Shown: positions 6,638 through 11,184 of the stretch, in pieces
Position numbering within the stretch: position 1 is the first letter of the stretch
Layout of the letters: every line of letters begins with the position of its first letter
NCBI RefSeq assembly: GCF_007859935.1
Contig: NZ_SJPO01000001.1
Coordinates: forward strand, 248,001 to 312,000
Direction: 5' to 3'
DNA: 64,000 nt
Origin: Posidoniimonas polymericola
GTDB taxonomy: Bacteria; Planctomycetota; Planctomycetia; Pirellulales; Lacipirellulaceae
The notes under the pieces: model-generated
What the model was told of the DNA's origin: nothing
The model's input: only the letters and a program-made list of their open reading frames with translations
Database searches by the model: none
Made by a program: the position numbers and the translations under genes

Positions 6638-7486
6638 CTAGCGGACGACAAGGTTATCGATCAATCGCGTCTTGCCGACCCGGGCGGCGACCGCGATTGC
6701 GGCCGGGCCGTCAACCGGGTCGATCGGTTCGAGCGTGCCGTCGCGGACGATGGCGATGTACTCCGGCGTGATGTCCGATTCTGCTAGCAGCGCCAGCATC
6801 GCGGTGCGGATGGCGGCGGCGTCGCGTTCGCCGCGGCTGCACATCTGCTCGGCCAACCTCAGGGACGCGTGCAGGGCGAGCGCCCGGCAGCGTTCCTCCG
6901 GCGACAAGTACGCGTTCCGCGAGCTCATCGCCAAGCCGTCGGGCTCGCGGACGATCGGGCAGATCACCAGCTCGATCGGCACGTTGAGGTCACGCACCAT
7001 GCGATCGATGACCAGGGTCTGCTGGTAGTCCTTGCGGCCGAAGTACGCGGCGTCGGCCGGCGCGAGCTGGAACAGCTTCATCACGACCGTCGCCACCCCC
7101 GCAAAATGGGTGGGGCGGGATTCCCCCTCCAGCGACCGCGCCACCCCGCCGACGTCGATCGTGGTTTCGCAGCCGGCGGGGTACATGGTCTCGACCGACG
7201 GCGCAAACACCAGCGTGCACCCGGCCGGGCCCAGCAGCCCCAGGTCGGCGTCTAGGTTGCGTGGGTACTGATCGAAGTCCTCGCCCGGAGCGAACTGCGT
7301 CGGGTTCACAAAGATGCTGGTGATCACGACGCCGCAATCCTGGCGGGCCGCGTCAACCAGGCTGAGGTGCCCGGCGTGCAGGGCGCCCATGGTCGGGACC
7401 AGCCCAATCCGCTGCCCGCCGCGCCGCTCGGCGGCGATCCGCTCGCGGAGCCGCGCGGGGGCGGTGATGACTTCGGGCGGTTTCAT
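6638..7486 (-). CDS. panC: Pantothenate synthetase
   Basis: PanC joins pantoate and beta-alanine with ATP to give pantothenate, the precursor of coenzyme A. The 282-residue length is normal. Visible motifs: LVPTMGALHAGHLSL at about 29-43 with the HIGH-type nucleotide-binding site, FVNPTQFAPGEDFDQYPR for pantoate, FGRKDYQQ, and the flexible loop MSSRNAYLSPEER. I start at the ATG at 7486, which gives the family N-terminus MKPPEVI; another ATG 42 nt upstream (7528) is possible, and neither has a clear ribosome site. It lies 62 bp after folK on the same strand, likely one transcript. Confidence 0.95.
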   Translation of the reverse strand: MKPPEVITAPARLRERIAAERRGGQRIGLVPTMGALHAGHLSLVDAARQDCGVVITSIFVNPTQFAPGEDFDQYPRNLDADLGLLGPAGCTLVFAPSVETMYPAGCETTIDVGGVARSLEGESRPTHFAGVATVVMKLFQLAPADAAYFGRKDYQQTLVIDRMVRDLNVPIELVICPIVREPDGLAMSSRNAYLSPEERCRALALHASLRLAEQMCSRGERDAAAIRTAMLALLAESDITPEYIAIVRDGTLEPIDPVDGPAAIAVAARVGKTRLIDNLVVR

Positions 7487-7548
7487 GGCGTGCTGGGCGT
7501 CGCTGCGGGGGAGTTCAGGGCCCTGCATTCTACGCGGCGGCGCCCGCC

Positions 7549-8271
7549 TCAGCCCAGCCCGGGCCAGACGCACTGGATCGCGGCGGTCAGGTCCTGCCGC
7601 AGGGCGTCGTGGGGGGCGTCCTCGGGCGTCCACAGCGTGGGGCCTGCTCCGATCAGCGGCGCCGGGTTGTCGTTGATCACCGACAGCCGCGGCGGCAACG
7701 CGTCGGGGTCGAAGTTTGTCACGACCTCCGGCCCGTTGGCGCCGACGCACCCGCGGGCCAGCTCGACCAACCAGGAGGGCCCGCCGAGCACCGCGAGCTT
7801 GTTCGCCCCGGCGGCACGCAGCTGATCCAGCTCGCCGAGCGGCCGACCGAGGAGCGGGTGGGTGGTCTCTCCGGCGATCTCGGCGGCCGGGATCATCACG
7901 AACGGGCGGAACGTCATCCGCGGGTGGGGCGTCTGGACGCCATTCTCGCTGCTAGCACGGTCGCCGTAGAGGAGCAGGTCGATGTCGAGGGTCCGGGCCT
8001 CCCAGCGGTCGCGGCGTTGGCGGCCGAACCGCTGTTCAACTTCGTGCAGCGCGTGCAGCAACTCGTGCGGCGGGAGTTCGGTCTCGATGGTGGCCGCGCC
8101 GTTGGTGAACCGCGGCTGATCGGCGGGGCCGCCGACCGGCGCCGACTCGATGAGCCGGCTCACGCGTTGCAGCCGCACTCCGGGCAGCACGCCAATCGCC
8201 TTGGCCGACTGCATCAGGGTGCTGAGCGCGTCTCCGAGATTGGCTCCGAGCGCTAGCAGGCATTGGGGCAT
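7549..8271 (-). CDS. folK: 2-amino-4-hydroxy-6-hydroxymethyldihydropteridine pyrophosphokinase
   Basis: HPPK transfers pyrophosphate from ATP to hydroxymethyl-dihydropterin in folate synthesis. The core covers residues 1 to about 150: LLALGANLGD at the start, the signature RRDRWEARTLDIDLLLYGD, and TPHPRMTFRPFVMIP. The protein has 240 residues, some 75 more than the usual 160, so it carries a C-terminal extension (from about LDQLRAAG to the end) with no family I recognise. The DNA before the ATG at 8271 is pyrimidine-rich without a ribosome site. An intrinsic terminator ends 30 nt upstream, so transcription must come by read-through or from a promoter overlapping the hairpin. Confidence 0.93.
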   Translation of the reverse strand: MPQCLLALGANLGDALSTLMQSAKAIGVLPGVRLQRVSRLIESAPVGGPADQPRFTNGAATIETELPPHELLHALHEVEQRFGRQRRDRWEARTLDIDLLLYGDRASSENGVQTPHPRMTFRPFVMIPAAEIAGETTHPLLGRPLGELDQLRAAGANKLAVLGGPSWLVELARGCVGANGPEVVTNFDPDALPPRLSVINDNPAPLIGAGPTLWTPEDAPHDALRQDLTAAIQCVWPGLG

Positions 8272-8301
8272 GGGGGGACTCGATGCAGAGGAGGGGGCGA
8301 T

Positions 8302-8335
8302 AAAAAAACGGCTGGCGCCACAAGGGGCGCCAGCC
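8302..8335 (-). terminator. Intrinsic terminator upstream of folK
   Basis: Read on the minus strand: GGCTGGCGCC, loop CCTTGT, GGCGCCAGCC, G, then seven T. The stem is perfect over 10 bp and the T-run is the longest in this window. It closes the transcript of the structured RNA candidate. Confidence 0.85.
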
Positions 8336-8507
8336 GCGTTTGATCAACCTCGGTCGCTATGAGTTTTCAGCACCCTGAGGGGGGCATCCCTGCACTGCGG
8401 ACAAGCCGCCAGTCGGCGTCCATGCAACGTCACCCCTCAAGTGAGCTGAAATTCCCAAGAGTGATCCATCGTGTGATCAATCAATCGATCAGTGTGATCA
8501 GCCAGGA
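8302..8507 (-). ncRNA. Candidate structured small RNA or folK leader
   Basis: On the minus strand a possible promoter is followed by about 205 nt without a gene, ending in a strong intrinsic terminator. The middle folds into a long interrupted helix. From the outside in (plus-strand coordinates): TTTCAGC 8365-8371 with GCTGAAA 8445-8451; CCTGAGGGG with CCCCTCAAG (one mismatch); TGCA with TGCA; GGAC with GTCC; GCCG with CGGC around loop CCAGT. Outside the helix TTGATCA and TGATCAA can close a larger bubble. The shape recalls 6S RNA, but I cannot assign a family. It could be a free small RNA, or a regulated leader of folK since the terminator lies only 30 nt before that start codon. Confidence 0.5.
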
Positions 8508-8513
8508 ACTGGA

Positions 8514-8541
8514 ATTCTCAGCAGTCTCGAGCGGGTGACAA
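8514..8541 (-). promoter_or_regulatory. Possible sigma-70 type promoter for the RNA candidate
   Basis: On the minus strand TTGTCA (complement of 8536-8541), 16-nt spacer, GAGAAT (complement of 8514-8519). Five of six and four of six positions match the usual consensus. Start of transcription would be near 8507. Confidence 0.4.
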
Positions 8542-9231
8542 GTTCATCACCTTGGTCATGGTTTCCTTGAAGCTGACGTATTCAACGGGCCGGTCGGATT
8601 GAGGGCGGCTGGGAGCGTCGCCTCGTGCGACGCAGCCGGAACAATCCGAAACCCCGAACAAATTGGAAGAAGCCGCTGGGCGCCTAGGGAGGACGTCGGC
8701 AGAGACTCGTCGTTTGGGAACATTGCTGTCTCGCCGGGGTGCGCCCGACACGAGCCTCGCAAAGCCGCCGAGGCGACTCCAACGCGTTGCAGCGATGGTC
8801 ACGTCGCGGGAATGAACAGCACCGGGAGCCCACACGCATGCTGCGTCTCTAGGCATCTACCAACCAGTCGCCGCACCGATTCCCATCACCCGACAATGCT
8901 TGCATCGATCGTTGATGATAAGCCAGATCTTTCCAGCTAAATCCACCAATCGGGAAGCAAGCCCGCACGAAGAAAACTGCCCACTTACACTCGGCGAGCG
9001 AACGCCCAACCGCGTTGCTCACCAGACTGAGACGAGTGTCGCGAAGTGGGGGGCGTGTGTCAAGCAGCTTTTCATTCTTCTTGCCGAAGCGCCGCGCCGC
9101 GCTAGGCAGACAGGGCTCTGCGCGTTCACTCTGACGCCGGCGCTTGCGCACGAGGAGCGCTGCGCGTACAATCCGGAGATCGATTTCTGGCGCCGCCGCG
9201 CGTCGTGTTCGCGACACGAAGAAAGGCTCCC
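8542..9231. other. Intergenic region before hemDE; no supported gene
   Basis: About 690 bp with open frames on both strands that show no protein-like features. It holds an elongated inverted-repeat structure at 8969-9081. The promoter of hemDE must lie in the right part. Confidence 0.55.
8969..9081. repeat. Long interrupted inverted repeat upstream of hemDE
   Basis: Paired segments from outside in: GAAG/CTTC, AAAA/TTTT, CTG/CAG, then CCCACTT (8980-8986) with AAGTGGG (9044-9050), ACACTCG (8987-8993) with CGAGTGT (9033-9039), then GAGC/GCTC and AACG/CGTT around a 7-nt loop. Two adjacent perfect 7-bp stems are unlikely by chance. It may be a leader RNA of hemDE, a separate RNA, or a dead mobile element; the strand is not clear. 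Confidence 0.5.
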
Positions 9232-11184
9232 TTGAGCACTCCCCCCGCCCCACAAGAATCGCTCTCGGTCGTTGCGCTGGAGAGCCGCCGCGCCGACGAT
9301 ATGCAGCGGATGATCGAGAAGCAGGGAGCGGTTGCCTACGTCAGCGCGTCGATGCGCGAGGCGCCCATCGAGGGCAACCGCGACGCGATTGAATTCGCGC
9401 ACCGACTGCTAGCAGGGCAGGTCGACGCGATGATCCTGCTGACCGGGGTCGGGGTTCGTTTCTTCATGCAGGCGGTTTCTCGCCACGTCGACCGGCAGCG
9501 GCTGATTGACGCGCTGTCGGACGTGCCGACCATCGCCCGCGGACCCAAGCCGGTCGCCGCGCTCAAGGAGCTCGGCGTCAAGCCGACCCTCCGTGTGCCC
9601 GAGCCGAACACCTGGCGCGAGCTGCTCAGCACGCTCGACCAGCAGATGCCGGTCGCCAACATGAAGGTCGGCCTGCAGGAGTACGGCGCCACGAACCCCA
9701 GCCTGATCGCGGGCCTCGAGGCCCGCGGGGCCACGGTCGACCTGCTGCGGATCTACAACTGGGAGCTGCCCGAGGACGTCGGCCCGCTGGAGGAGAACGT
9801 CCGCCGCCTGGCCCGCGGCGAGGCCGACGTGCTGATGATCACCTCGGCGCAGCAGATCGAGCACCTGATGCAGGTCGCCGAGCGGCTCGGCGAAGACGAG
9901 GCGCTCCGCGCCGCGCTCGGCGGCACGGTGGTCGCCTCGGTCGGCCCCACCACCTCCGACCGGCTCCGGGCGCTCGGCCTGCCGGTCGACTTCGAGCCGT
10001 CGCACCCCAAGATGGGCAACCTGGTCGTCGAGGCGCTCCGCGAGGCGCCCACGCTGCTCGCGCGCAAACGCGCGCTGCCGCGGCGATCGATCAGCGCCCG
10101 CACCTCGCCGCGTGAGGACCGCGCCGCCGAGCTGGTCGACGCCACCCGCAACCAGCCGTGGCACGACAGCCCATTCCTCAAGGCCTGCCGCCAAGAGCCG
10201 ACGCCCTACACGCCGATCTGGATGATGCGCCAAGCGGGCCGCTACATGCCCGAGTACCGCGCGGTCCGCGCCAAGACCGGATTCCTCGAGCTGTGCCGCA
10301 ACCCACAGCTCTGCAGCGAGGTCATGTGCACCGCGGTCGAGTACCTCGGCGTCGACGCGGCGATCATCTTCTCCGACCTGCTGCCGATCCTCGAGCCGAT
10401 GGGACTCGACCTCGAGTTTGCCCCCGGCGACGGGCCGGTGATCCACAACCCGGTCCGCGAGTCGGCCGACGTCGACCGCGTGCTCGACCTCTCTAGCGTC
10501 GAGTCGCTGCACTACGTCATCGAGACCGTCCGCCAGACCCGCGCCGACCTGCCCGACACAATCCCGCTGATCGGCTTCGCGGGCGCGCCGTTCACGCTCG
10601 CCAGCTACACCATCGAGGGGGGCGGCAGCCGCAACTATCTGCACACCAAGACCCTCATGTACCGCGACGAGGGCGCCTGGCGGACCCTCATGGAGCGGCT
10701 CGCCGACGCGGTCACCCTCTACCTCAACGCCCAGATCGACGCCGGCGCGCAGGCCGTGCAGCTGTTCGACAGCTGGGTCGGCTGCCTCTGCCCGGCCGAC
10801 TACACCCGCTACGTGCAGCCCTACGTCAAGCGGATCATCGACAACCTGACGCCCGGCGCGGCGGTGATCCACTTCGGTGCCGGCAACCCCGAGCTGCTCG
10901 GCCCCATTGCCGAAGCCGGCGGCGATGTGATCGGCGTCGACTGGCGGATCGACCTCGACGAGGCCTGGTCACGCGTTGGGCGCCGCGCGGTGCAGGGCAA
11001 CCTCGACCCCGCGAGCCTGCTCGGCAGCCTCGACTCGATCAAGCAGGGCGCCCAGCGGGTCCTCGACCAGGCCGCCGGCCGCCCCGGGCACATCTTCAAC
11101 CTCGGCCACGGCATCGTGCCGCCGACCCCGCCCGAGAACGCCCGCGCGCTGGTTGAGATGGTGCACGAATTGAGCGCGCGCTAA
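9232..11184 (+). CDS. hemE: Fused uroporphyrinogen-III synthase / uroporphyrinogen decarboxylase
   Basis: Two consecutive haem-pathway enzymes in one 650-residue chain. Residues 1 to about 270 resemble HemD, which closes hydroxymethylbilane to uroporphyrinogen III (ILLTGVGVRFF, LMITSAQQIEHLMQV, VVASVGPTTSDRLRALGL). A 35-residue charged linker follows. From about 307 on it is HemE, which removes four carboxyl groups to give coproporphyrinogen III: WMMRQAGRYMPEYR at about 330, FSDLLPILEPMGL, GFAGAPFTLASY, and HFGAGN. I start at TTG 9232 because AGAAAGG lies 6 nt before it; a GTG at 9205 is in frame but has no ribosome site. No other haem genes are adjacent. Confidence 0.9.
   Translation: MSTPPAPQESLSVVALESRRADDMQRMIEKQGAVAYVSASMREAPIEGNRDAIEFAHRLLAGQVDAMILLTGVGVRFFMQAVSRHVDRQRLIDALSDVPTIARGPKPVAALKELGVKPTLRVPEPNTWRELLSTLDQQMPVANMKVGLQEYGATNPSLIAGLEARGATVDLLRIYNWELPEDVGPLEENVRRLARGEADVLMITSAQQIEHLMQVAERLGEDEALRAALGGTVVASVGPTTSDRLRALGLPVDFEPSHPKMGNLVVEALREAPTLLARKRALPRRSISARTSPREDRAAELVDATRNQPWHDSPFLKACRQEPTPYTPIWMMRQAGRYMPEYRAVRAKTGFLELCRNPQLCSEVMCTAVEYLGVDAAIIFSDLLPILEPMGLDLEFAPGDGPVIHNPVRESADVDRVLDLSSVESLHYVIETVRQTRADLPDTIPLIGFAGAPFTLASYTIEGGGSRNYLHTKTLMYRDEGAWRTLMERLADAVTLYLNAQIDAGAQAVQLFDSWVGCLCPADYTRYVQPYVKRIIDNLTPGAAVIHFGAGNPELLGPIAEAGGDVIGVDWRIDLDEAWSRVGRRAVQGNLDPASLLGSLDSIKQGAQRVLDQAAGRPGHIFNLGHGIVPPTPPENARALVEMVHELSAR

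Follow-up and report, generated by a model that had tools for sequence, protein, structure and literature searches.

The region upstream of folK in Posidoniimonas polymericola holds one copy of an order-wide RNA gene, predicted here by sequence comparison, that has not been catalogued before. At least 85 of 98 genomes of the order carry the gene, essentially once each; it has its own conserved promoter and is absent from Rfam. We regard the existence of this family, and the membership in it of the copy in our window (the whole 64,000-nucleotide stretch of DNA that was analysed), as very probable. The reading that we favour, with a probability of about 0.6, is that of a single-copy non-coding RNA gene whose product would be independent and trans-acting, rather than a leader of folK. 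To our knowledge, very few RNA regulators are known in Planctomycetota, and the family provides planctomycete researchers with a concrete gene.

The segment 8560-8290 of the minus strand folds with a minimum free energy of -118.6 kcal/mol versus -90.1 +/- 5.6 kcal/mol for dinucleotide shuffles (z = -5.1), and none of 200 shuffles folded as well. No Rfam family matched the window or the related loci, whether gathering scores or permissive thresholds were applied, and in 20 loci searched at E values up to 10 there was no match to 6S RNA, the THF riboswitch or any other riboswitch. The initial annotation had proposed an undescribed structured RNA unlike any known riboswitch, and these results, together with the family models described below that find its core, bear this out. 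Its account of the immediate surroundings of folK was also accurate: the stretch from 8541 to 8302 is free of genes between a promoter-like pair and an intrinsic terminator, the T-run of that terminator stops 30 nt short of the folK start codon, the ATG at 8271, which has no Shine-Dalgarno sequence ahead of it. The proposed TTTCAGC/GCTGAAA pair closes a near-continuous helix and reads TATCAGC/GCTGATA in the sister genome G001, a compensatory change.

A DNA-level search with the whole segment in 98 relatives returned G001 as the only convincing relative. There the sequence occupies the same position, between a divergent hemD-hemE gene and folK, and the alignment retains ATGACCAAGGTGAT, GTCACCCGCTYGAG, TTGAGGGGTGACG...ATGGACG, CAGGGATG, CCCCTCA and the terminator. 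In the window and at L032, and in this genus only, minus-strand positions 8559-8526 carry a Shine-Dalgarno-like AAGGA followed by ATGACCAAGGTGAT... and a possible short peptide, MTKV..SPA. In the folds of both the window and G001 the 3' part of this stretch is able to base-pair with the P1 5' strand CTTGAGGGGTGAC (8441-8429); GTCACCCGCTYGAG lies beside the possible peptide, and its potential pairing with the P1 5' strand would compete with P1. The arrangement could be a genus-specific switch. A general P1-competing sequence, an idea prompted by GTCACCCGCTCGAG, was rejected as a family trait (7.9 nt versus 8.0 nt in shuffles).

The wider family was recognised by eye in the folK upstream regions of 30 relatives, in which an element resembling UUGGGGGGCGACGACUG..GGAUCGAC..GUCGGCGAC....GUCGUGG..CNGGAUGUCCCCUCCAA recurs and is followed by a T-run. 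Two covariance models were built, R1 from 19 elements and R2 from 77, both with the genus Posidoniimonas left out. At E <= 0.1, R1 found the core in 85 of the 98 Pirellulales genomes, nearly always as a single copy, and R2 recovered further members (for example, in G073, G120 and G142). The core of G001 scored 25.6 bits with R1 and 29.7 bits with R2; R1 gave 18.6 bits in the window, at 8443-8369. The window's member is divergent. Its R2 score exceeds that of the best other match listed in its genome (18.9 bits) but corresponds to E ~0.02 when scaled to the whole genome, and the genome-wide R2 search did not list it. Its membership therefore rests also on G001 and on synteny.

No convincing members were found outside Pirellulales; matches in the remaining orders of its class and phylum occurred at about chance level, and four of these (L145-L148), near chance frequency and with neither promoter nor folK, were set aside as false matches. 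The order-level R1 search showed no family of core copies associated with other folate genes. Possible second copies of the core were seen at G052:C17:164-241 (L153; 46.7 bits with R2) and in G093:C209 (L134; only 25 bits). G007 contains about 30 weak R2 matches, many of about 98 bases and some present on both strands at a single site, which suggests a dispersed palindromic repeat family resembling the core. Neither core nor promoter was seen upstream of folK at L150 (genome G059, which we take to be Thermogutta terrifontis, a species with published RNA-seq); in a few lineages such as this one the RNA appears to have been lost or to have diverged beyond recognition.

Covariation supports helices P1 and P3 of the structure. 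The conserved 3' domain is predicted to consist of a closing helix P1, a helix P2 with a GAUCGA-type loop, a helix P3 and a GGAUG junction. In a 77-sequence alignment, P1 and P3 are paired in 90-92% of cells, and double changes are found in all six pairs of P1 and all five pairs of P3. The number of double-change cells is 83-100 versus 28-44 in shuffles, none of 500 shuffles reached the real value, and controls with slid structures showed covariation far below that of the real structure in whole-structure counts. This alignment was fitted to a model containing P1 and P3 and is hence biased towards them; the covariation of both helices was already present in an earlier MAFFT alignment with an independently predicted structure. 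Conservation of the stems in relatives, which the initial annotation had put forward as a check on its RNA, is thus found for P1 and P3. Helix P2 (CGAC/GUCG around the GGAUCGAC loop) is paired in 84% of cells, shows little covariation and is conserved mainly in sequence. L082 (G029) carries a second copy of CGCTCAAGGGGGGCGACC, the region of the P1 5' strand, about 40 nt upstream of the core, so that two partners are possible for the P1 3' strand.

Table 1. Features of the window around the predicted RNA gene, in order along the minus strand from the upstream gene to panC.
Feature	Position	Strand	Remark
hemD-hemE fusion	9205..11184	+	Divergent, upstream; Pfam PF02602 and PF01208
Conserved promoter AGCTGCTTGACACACGCCCCCCACTTCGCGACACTC	9034..9069	-	-35 TTGACA at 9063-9058, -10 GACACT at 9040-9035, spacer 17
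Predicted 5' part of transcript	8452..9028	-	Little conserved from genus to genus; of unusual length in this genus
ATGACCAAGGTGATGAAC...GTCACCCGCTCGAG	8526..8559	-	Conserved in G001 (alignment)
TTGTCA-N16-GAGAAT	8514..8541	-	Sole sigma70-like match within 7500-9300
Outer helix, 5' strand TTTCAGC	8445..8451	-	Pairs with 8371-8365; seen only in the genus Posidoniimonas
Conserved RNA core, predicted three-helix junction	8367..8443	-	R2 22.7 bits, E 2.3e-4 in 64 kb
P1, 5' strand TGAGGGG	8433..8439	-	Pairs with CCCCTCA at 8382-8376
P2 loop counterpart	8412..8422	-	Family GGAUCGAC, window GGACGCCGAC; alignment and R2 match
P3 hairpin GCGG-CUUGU-CCGC	8397..8409	-	Window fold
GGAUG	8385..8389	-	Conserved, links P3 to P1 3' strand; alignment, window fold and R2 match
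Outer helix, 3' strand GCTGAAA	8365..8371	-	Partner of 8451-8445; the pair closes a near-continuous helix
Intrinsic terminator	8302..8337	-	12-pair stem 8337-8308 and T7 8308-8302; separate terminator past the core, as in several related genera
folK (HPPK)	7549..8271	-	Pfam PF01288, E 2.6e-33; usual gene downstream of the RNA
panC	6638..7486	-	Pfam PF02569; next after folK

Most members carry a shared motif upstream of the core and on the same strand, AGTTGCTTGACA-N16-CAMAATG, and the family promoter consensus is GCTTGACA-N16/17-CAMAAT. A position matrix for this promoter gave at least 11 bits in 74 members (maximum up to 50), and the opposite strand never exceeded 6.6 bits. In the window its best match on either strand of the 64 kb (22.1 bits) is the promoter at 9069-9034, which G001 and most family members have in the same place and on the same strand. 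Because the matrix had been seeded from the family loci themselves, an independent scan was made with an exact promoter-only pattern over 84,980 species, with one genome each. It returned 20 matches, 16 of them in Planctomycetota. R2 placed the core downstream on the same strand in all 15 planctomycete matches with enough flanking DNA (L178 was too short) and near none of the other four, which lie in Clostridia, Lachnospiraceae and Corynebacterium. The conserved promoter lies about 520 nt further upstream than the TTGTCA/GAGAAT pair to which the initial annotation had assigned this role. That particular pair is not supported as the promoter: it is present in the window, yet it is not conserved, because its -10 box, GAGAAT, is deleted in G001. 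Immediately 5' of the core there is no clear AT peak that would mark a promoter.

Transcription is predicted to start near 9028, which would give a transcript of about 725 nt in the window; the family median is 354 nt from predicted start to core end, and some members are predicted to span only ~90-130 nt. The interval 8541-8302, formerly taken for the whole RNA, would be its 3' part. The distance from promoter to core is mostly 200-450 nt and typically about 320 nt, with 88 nt at L118 and 626 nt in the window. In Lacipirellula limnantheis I41 (NZ_CP036339.1; L183), for example, the promoter is at 2992-2963 and the core at 2643-2564, both on the minus strand. Comparison across members shows a dedicated conserved promoter of sigma70 type, followed by a sequence-variable 5' part and then by the structured 3' domain. 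Genera such as g29 and g43 show good conservation of the 5' part among their own members; in most members of the family it does not fold with unusual stability. A coding role for it was discarded, as every reading frame is broken by indels within genera. In most members the 3' domain ends straight in the U-tract of an intrinsic terminator: P1 is followed directly by a U-tract in 72 of 89 hits, an arrangement that is usual rather than defining. In the window and G001 there is no direct U-tract; P1 is lengthened by the outer helix, and the terminator follows separately.

The RNA has kept close company with folK. Of 84 order-level loci, 76 have folK as the adjacent downstream gene in the same orientation, at a distance of 7-412 nt from the core (97 nt in the window). 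Among loci with long flanks this link is about as tight as that between folK and panC (44 versus 36 loci), and we interpret this to indicate a lasting tie to folK. The gene upstream is less constant, with hemDE as neighbour confined to the window's own family in the same set of loci. FolK of the window is 240 amino acids long, of which only residues 6-133 form the HPPK domain; the C-terminal ~105 residues have no Pfam match. In about ten genomes the gap between the U-tract and the start of folK is 7-30 nt, which leaves no room for a separate folK promoter. For these genomes read-through from the RNA promoter would be the simplest source of folK mRNA, and the RNA gene is probably often read through into folK.

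Elsewhere the RNA and its promoter stand apart from folK. At L094 and L096, from one genus, both are kept and folK is found beyond hemDE; at L094 the RNA is followed by a convergent cytidylate-kinase-like gene. Both also persist at L095, where folK is not adjacent and dtxR/feoA-feoB is inserted, at L097, where a uracil-DNA-glycosylase gene follows the RNA and folK is not adjacent, and at L101 and L141, again with folK not adjacent. Several of the cases lacking folK are fragmentary assemblies. In 17 of 67 loci, the window among them, the core is separated from folK by a second terminator. At L077, L086, L099 and L113 a near-identical second terminator (GGGGCTTGTGG...CCACAAGCCCC-T5) is found past the core, comparable to 8337-8302 in the window.

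These patterns bear on the choice, posed by the initial annotation, between a free RNA and a folK-panC leader. The main rival of an independent RNA gene is a cis-acting attenuator or riboswitch specific to folK-panC, in which a ligand or protein bound to the three-helix junction would stabilise P1, the terminator together with its U-tract, and so shut off folK. Arguing for it, the folK linkage is tight across about 20 families that differ in the upstream gene, and is closer than would be required of a purely independent RNA; folK follows closely on the U-tract in some ten genomes; and at L118, with its short promoter distance, the core ends 9 nt before folK. Counter to this, the RNA and its promoter occur without folK in several lineages, some of them without any close same-strand gene downstream, extra terminators separate the RNA from folK, and we found no general pairing that competes with P1, no match to a riboswitch at E values up to 10 and no family of core copies ahead of further folate genes. 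A cis leader is not expected to persist without folK or where additional terminators cut it off from folK. For this reason the free RNA gene fits better, and we consider the attenuator unlikely, albeit a serious competitor. Alternatively, the RNA could have no function of its own and only form an elaborate terminator or insulator bordering the folK operon, given that P1 and the U-tract are a terminator in most members. This is very improbable: the conserved GAUCGA and GGAUG motifs and helices P2 and P3 are not needed for termination, the dedicated promoter is conserved, and the RNA survives where neighbouring genes differ. Under the preferred reading of an independent gene, the RNA would act in trans, probably through a putative protein partner bound to the conserved 3' domain, and folK would be expressed in part by read-through, as with ygfA behind 6S RNA in Escherichia coli.

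One candidate for such a partner is RNA polymerase, in which case the RNA would be a functional counterpart of 6S or Ms1 RNA. According to PMC5673643, citing Wehner 2014, 6S RNA is not found in Pirellula, Rhodopirellula and Thermogutta, and the 6S model (RF00013) matched none of 44 genomes of the window's family in a search whose control rang in only 5 of 14 known genomes. The RNA is single-copy, has a strong promoter and a predicted median length of ~350 nt. In gamma-proteobacteria 6S RNA is likewise cotranscribed with a folate-metabolism gene, ygfA, for reasons that are not known (PMC2848244), and synteny was used to extend Ms1 RNA, a binder of core RNA polymerase, across the Actinobacteria, a group that largely lacks 6S (PMC9130861). 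Against this, even the search up to E 10 gave no 6S match, some members are predicted to be far shorter than the median, and consensus folds in six genera or small groups, in which the true ends are not fixed, show no common 6S-like rod with a central bubble. The likeness to 6S RNA in the initial annotation thus extends to layout only. By analogy, the RNA might be the missing global polymerase-binding regulator in a new architecture, its folK link paralleling the unexplained 6S-ygfA link; we consider this doubtful, and less plausible than the attenuator. The 6S-ygfA and Ms1 precedents nevertheless make a polymerase-binding role worth testing. If the RNA does bind RNA polymerase, it would fill the 6S gap reported in this phylum; if its role is to regulate the making of folate, it would represent a new folate switch.

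Known RNAs offer several partial likenesses. SRP RNA, RNase P RNA and tmRNA were rejected as identities of the RNA, since all three are encoded elsewhere in the window's genome (G000). Planctomycetes go unmentioned in a survey that covered the structured RNAs of 26 bacterial genomes (PMC8632094). The Rhodopirellula-1 candidate motif is named in a 2010 list for Planctomycetes and Proteobacteria, without an Rfam accession (PMC2864571; Weinberg 2010); our RNA was not found outside Pirellulales, and there is a small chance that the RNA was discovered before under that name. CsrB/RsmZ-type RNAs also end in a terminator, and the Pirellulales core has two nearly invariant GGA motifs, but GGA is not enriched outside the core (312 seen versus 375 expected), and the idea of a CsrA sponge was dropped. 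With the THF riboswitch (RF01831) and other riboswitches the RNA shares a junction-type structure before a folate gene and a terminator at its end; it differs in matching none of their models, in persisting without folK and in having its own distant promoter. Like Ms1, it occurs throughout a group in which 6S is largely absent, and its gene neighbourhood is conserved (PMC9130861), although phylum and neighbours are different, there is no Rfam match and polymerase binding is conjectured for the Pirellulales RNA. A further parallel in arrangement is ssrS-ygfA (PMC2848244). Both RNA genes are single-copy, have their own promoter and precede a folate-metabolism gene in the same orientation, so that the puzzling placement of an RNA beside a folate gene is repeated here, whereas the rod with a central bubble that typifies 6S RNA (RF00013) is replaced by a conserved three-helix junction near the 3' end.
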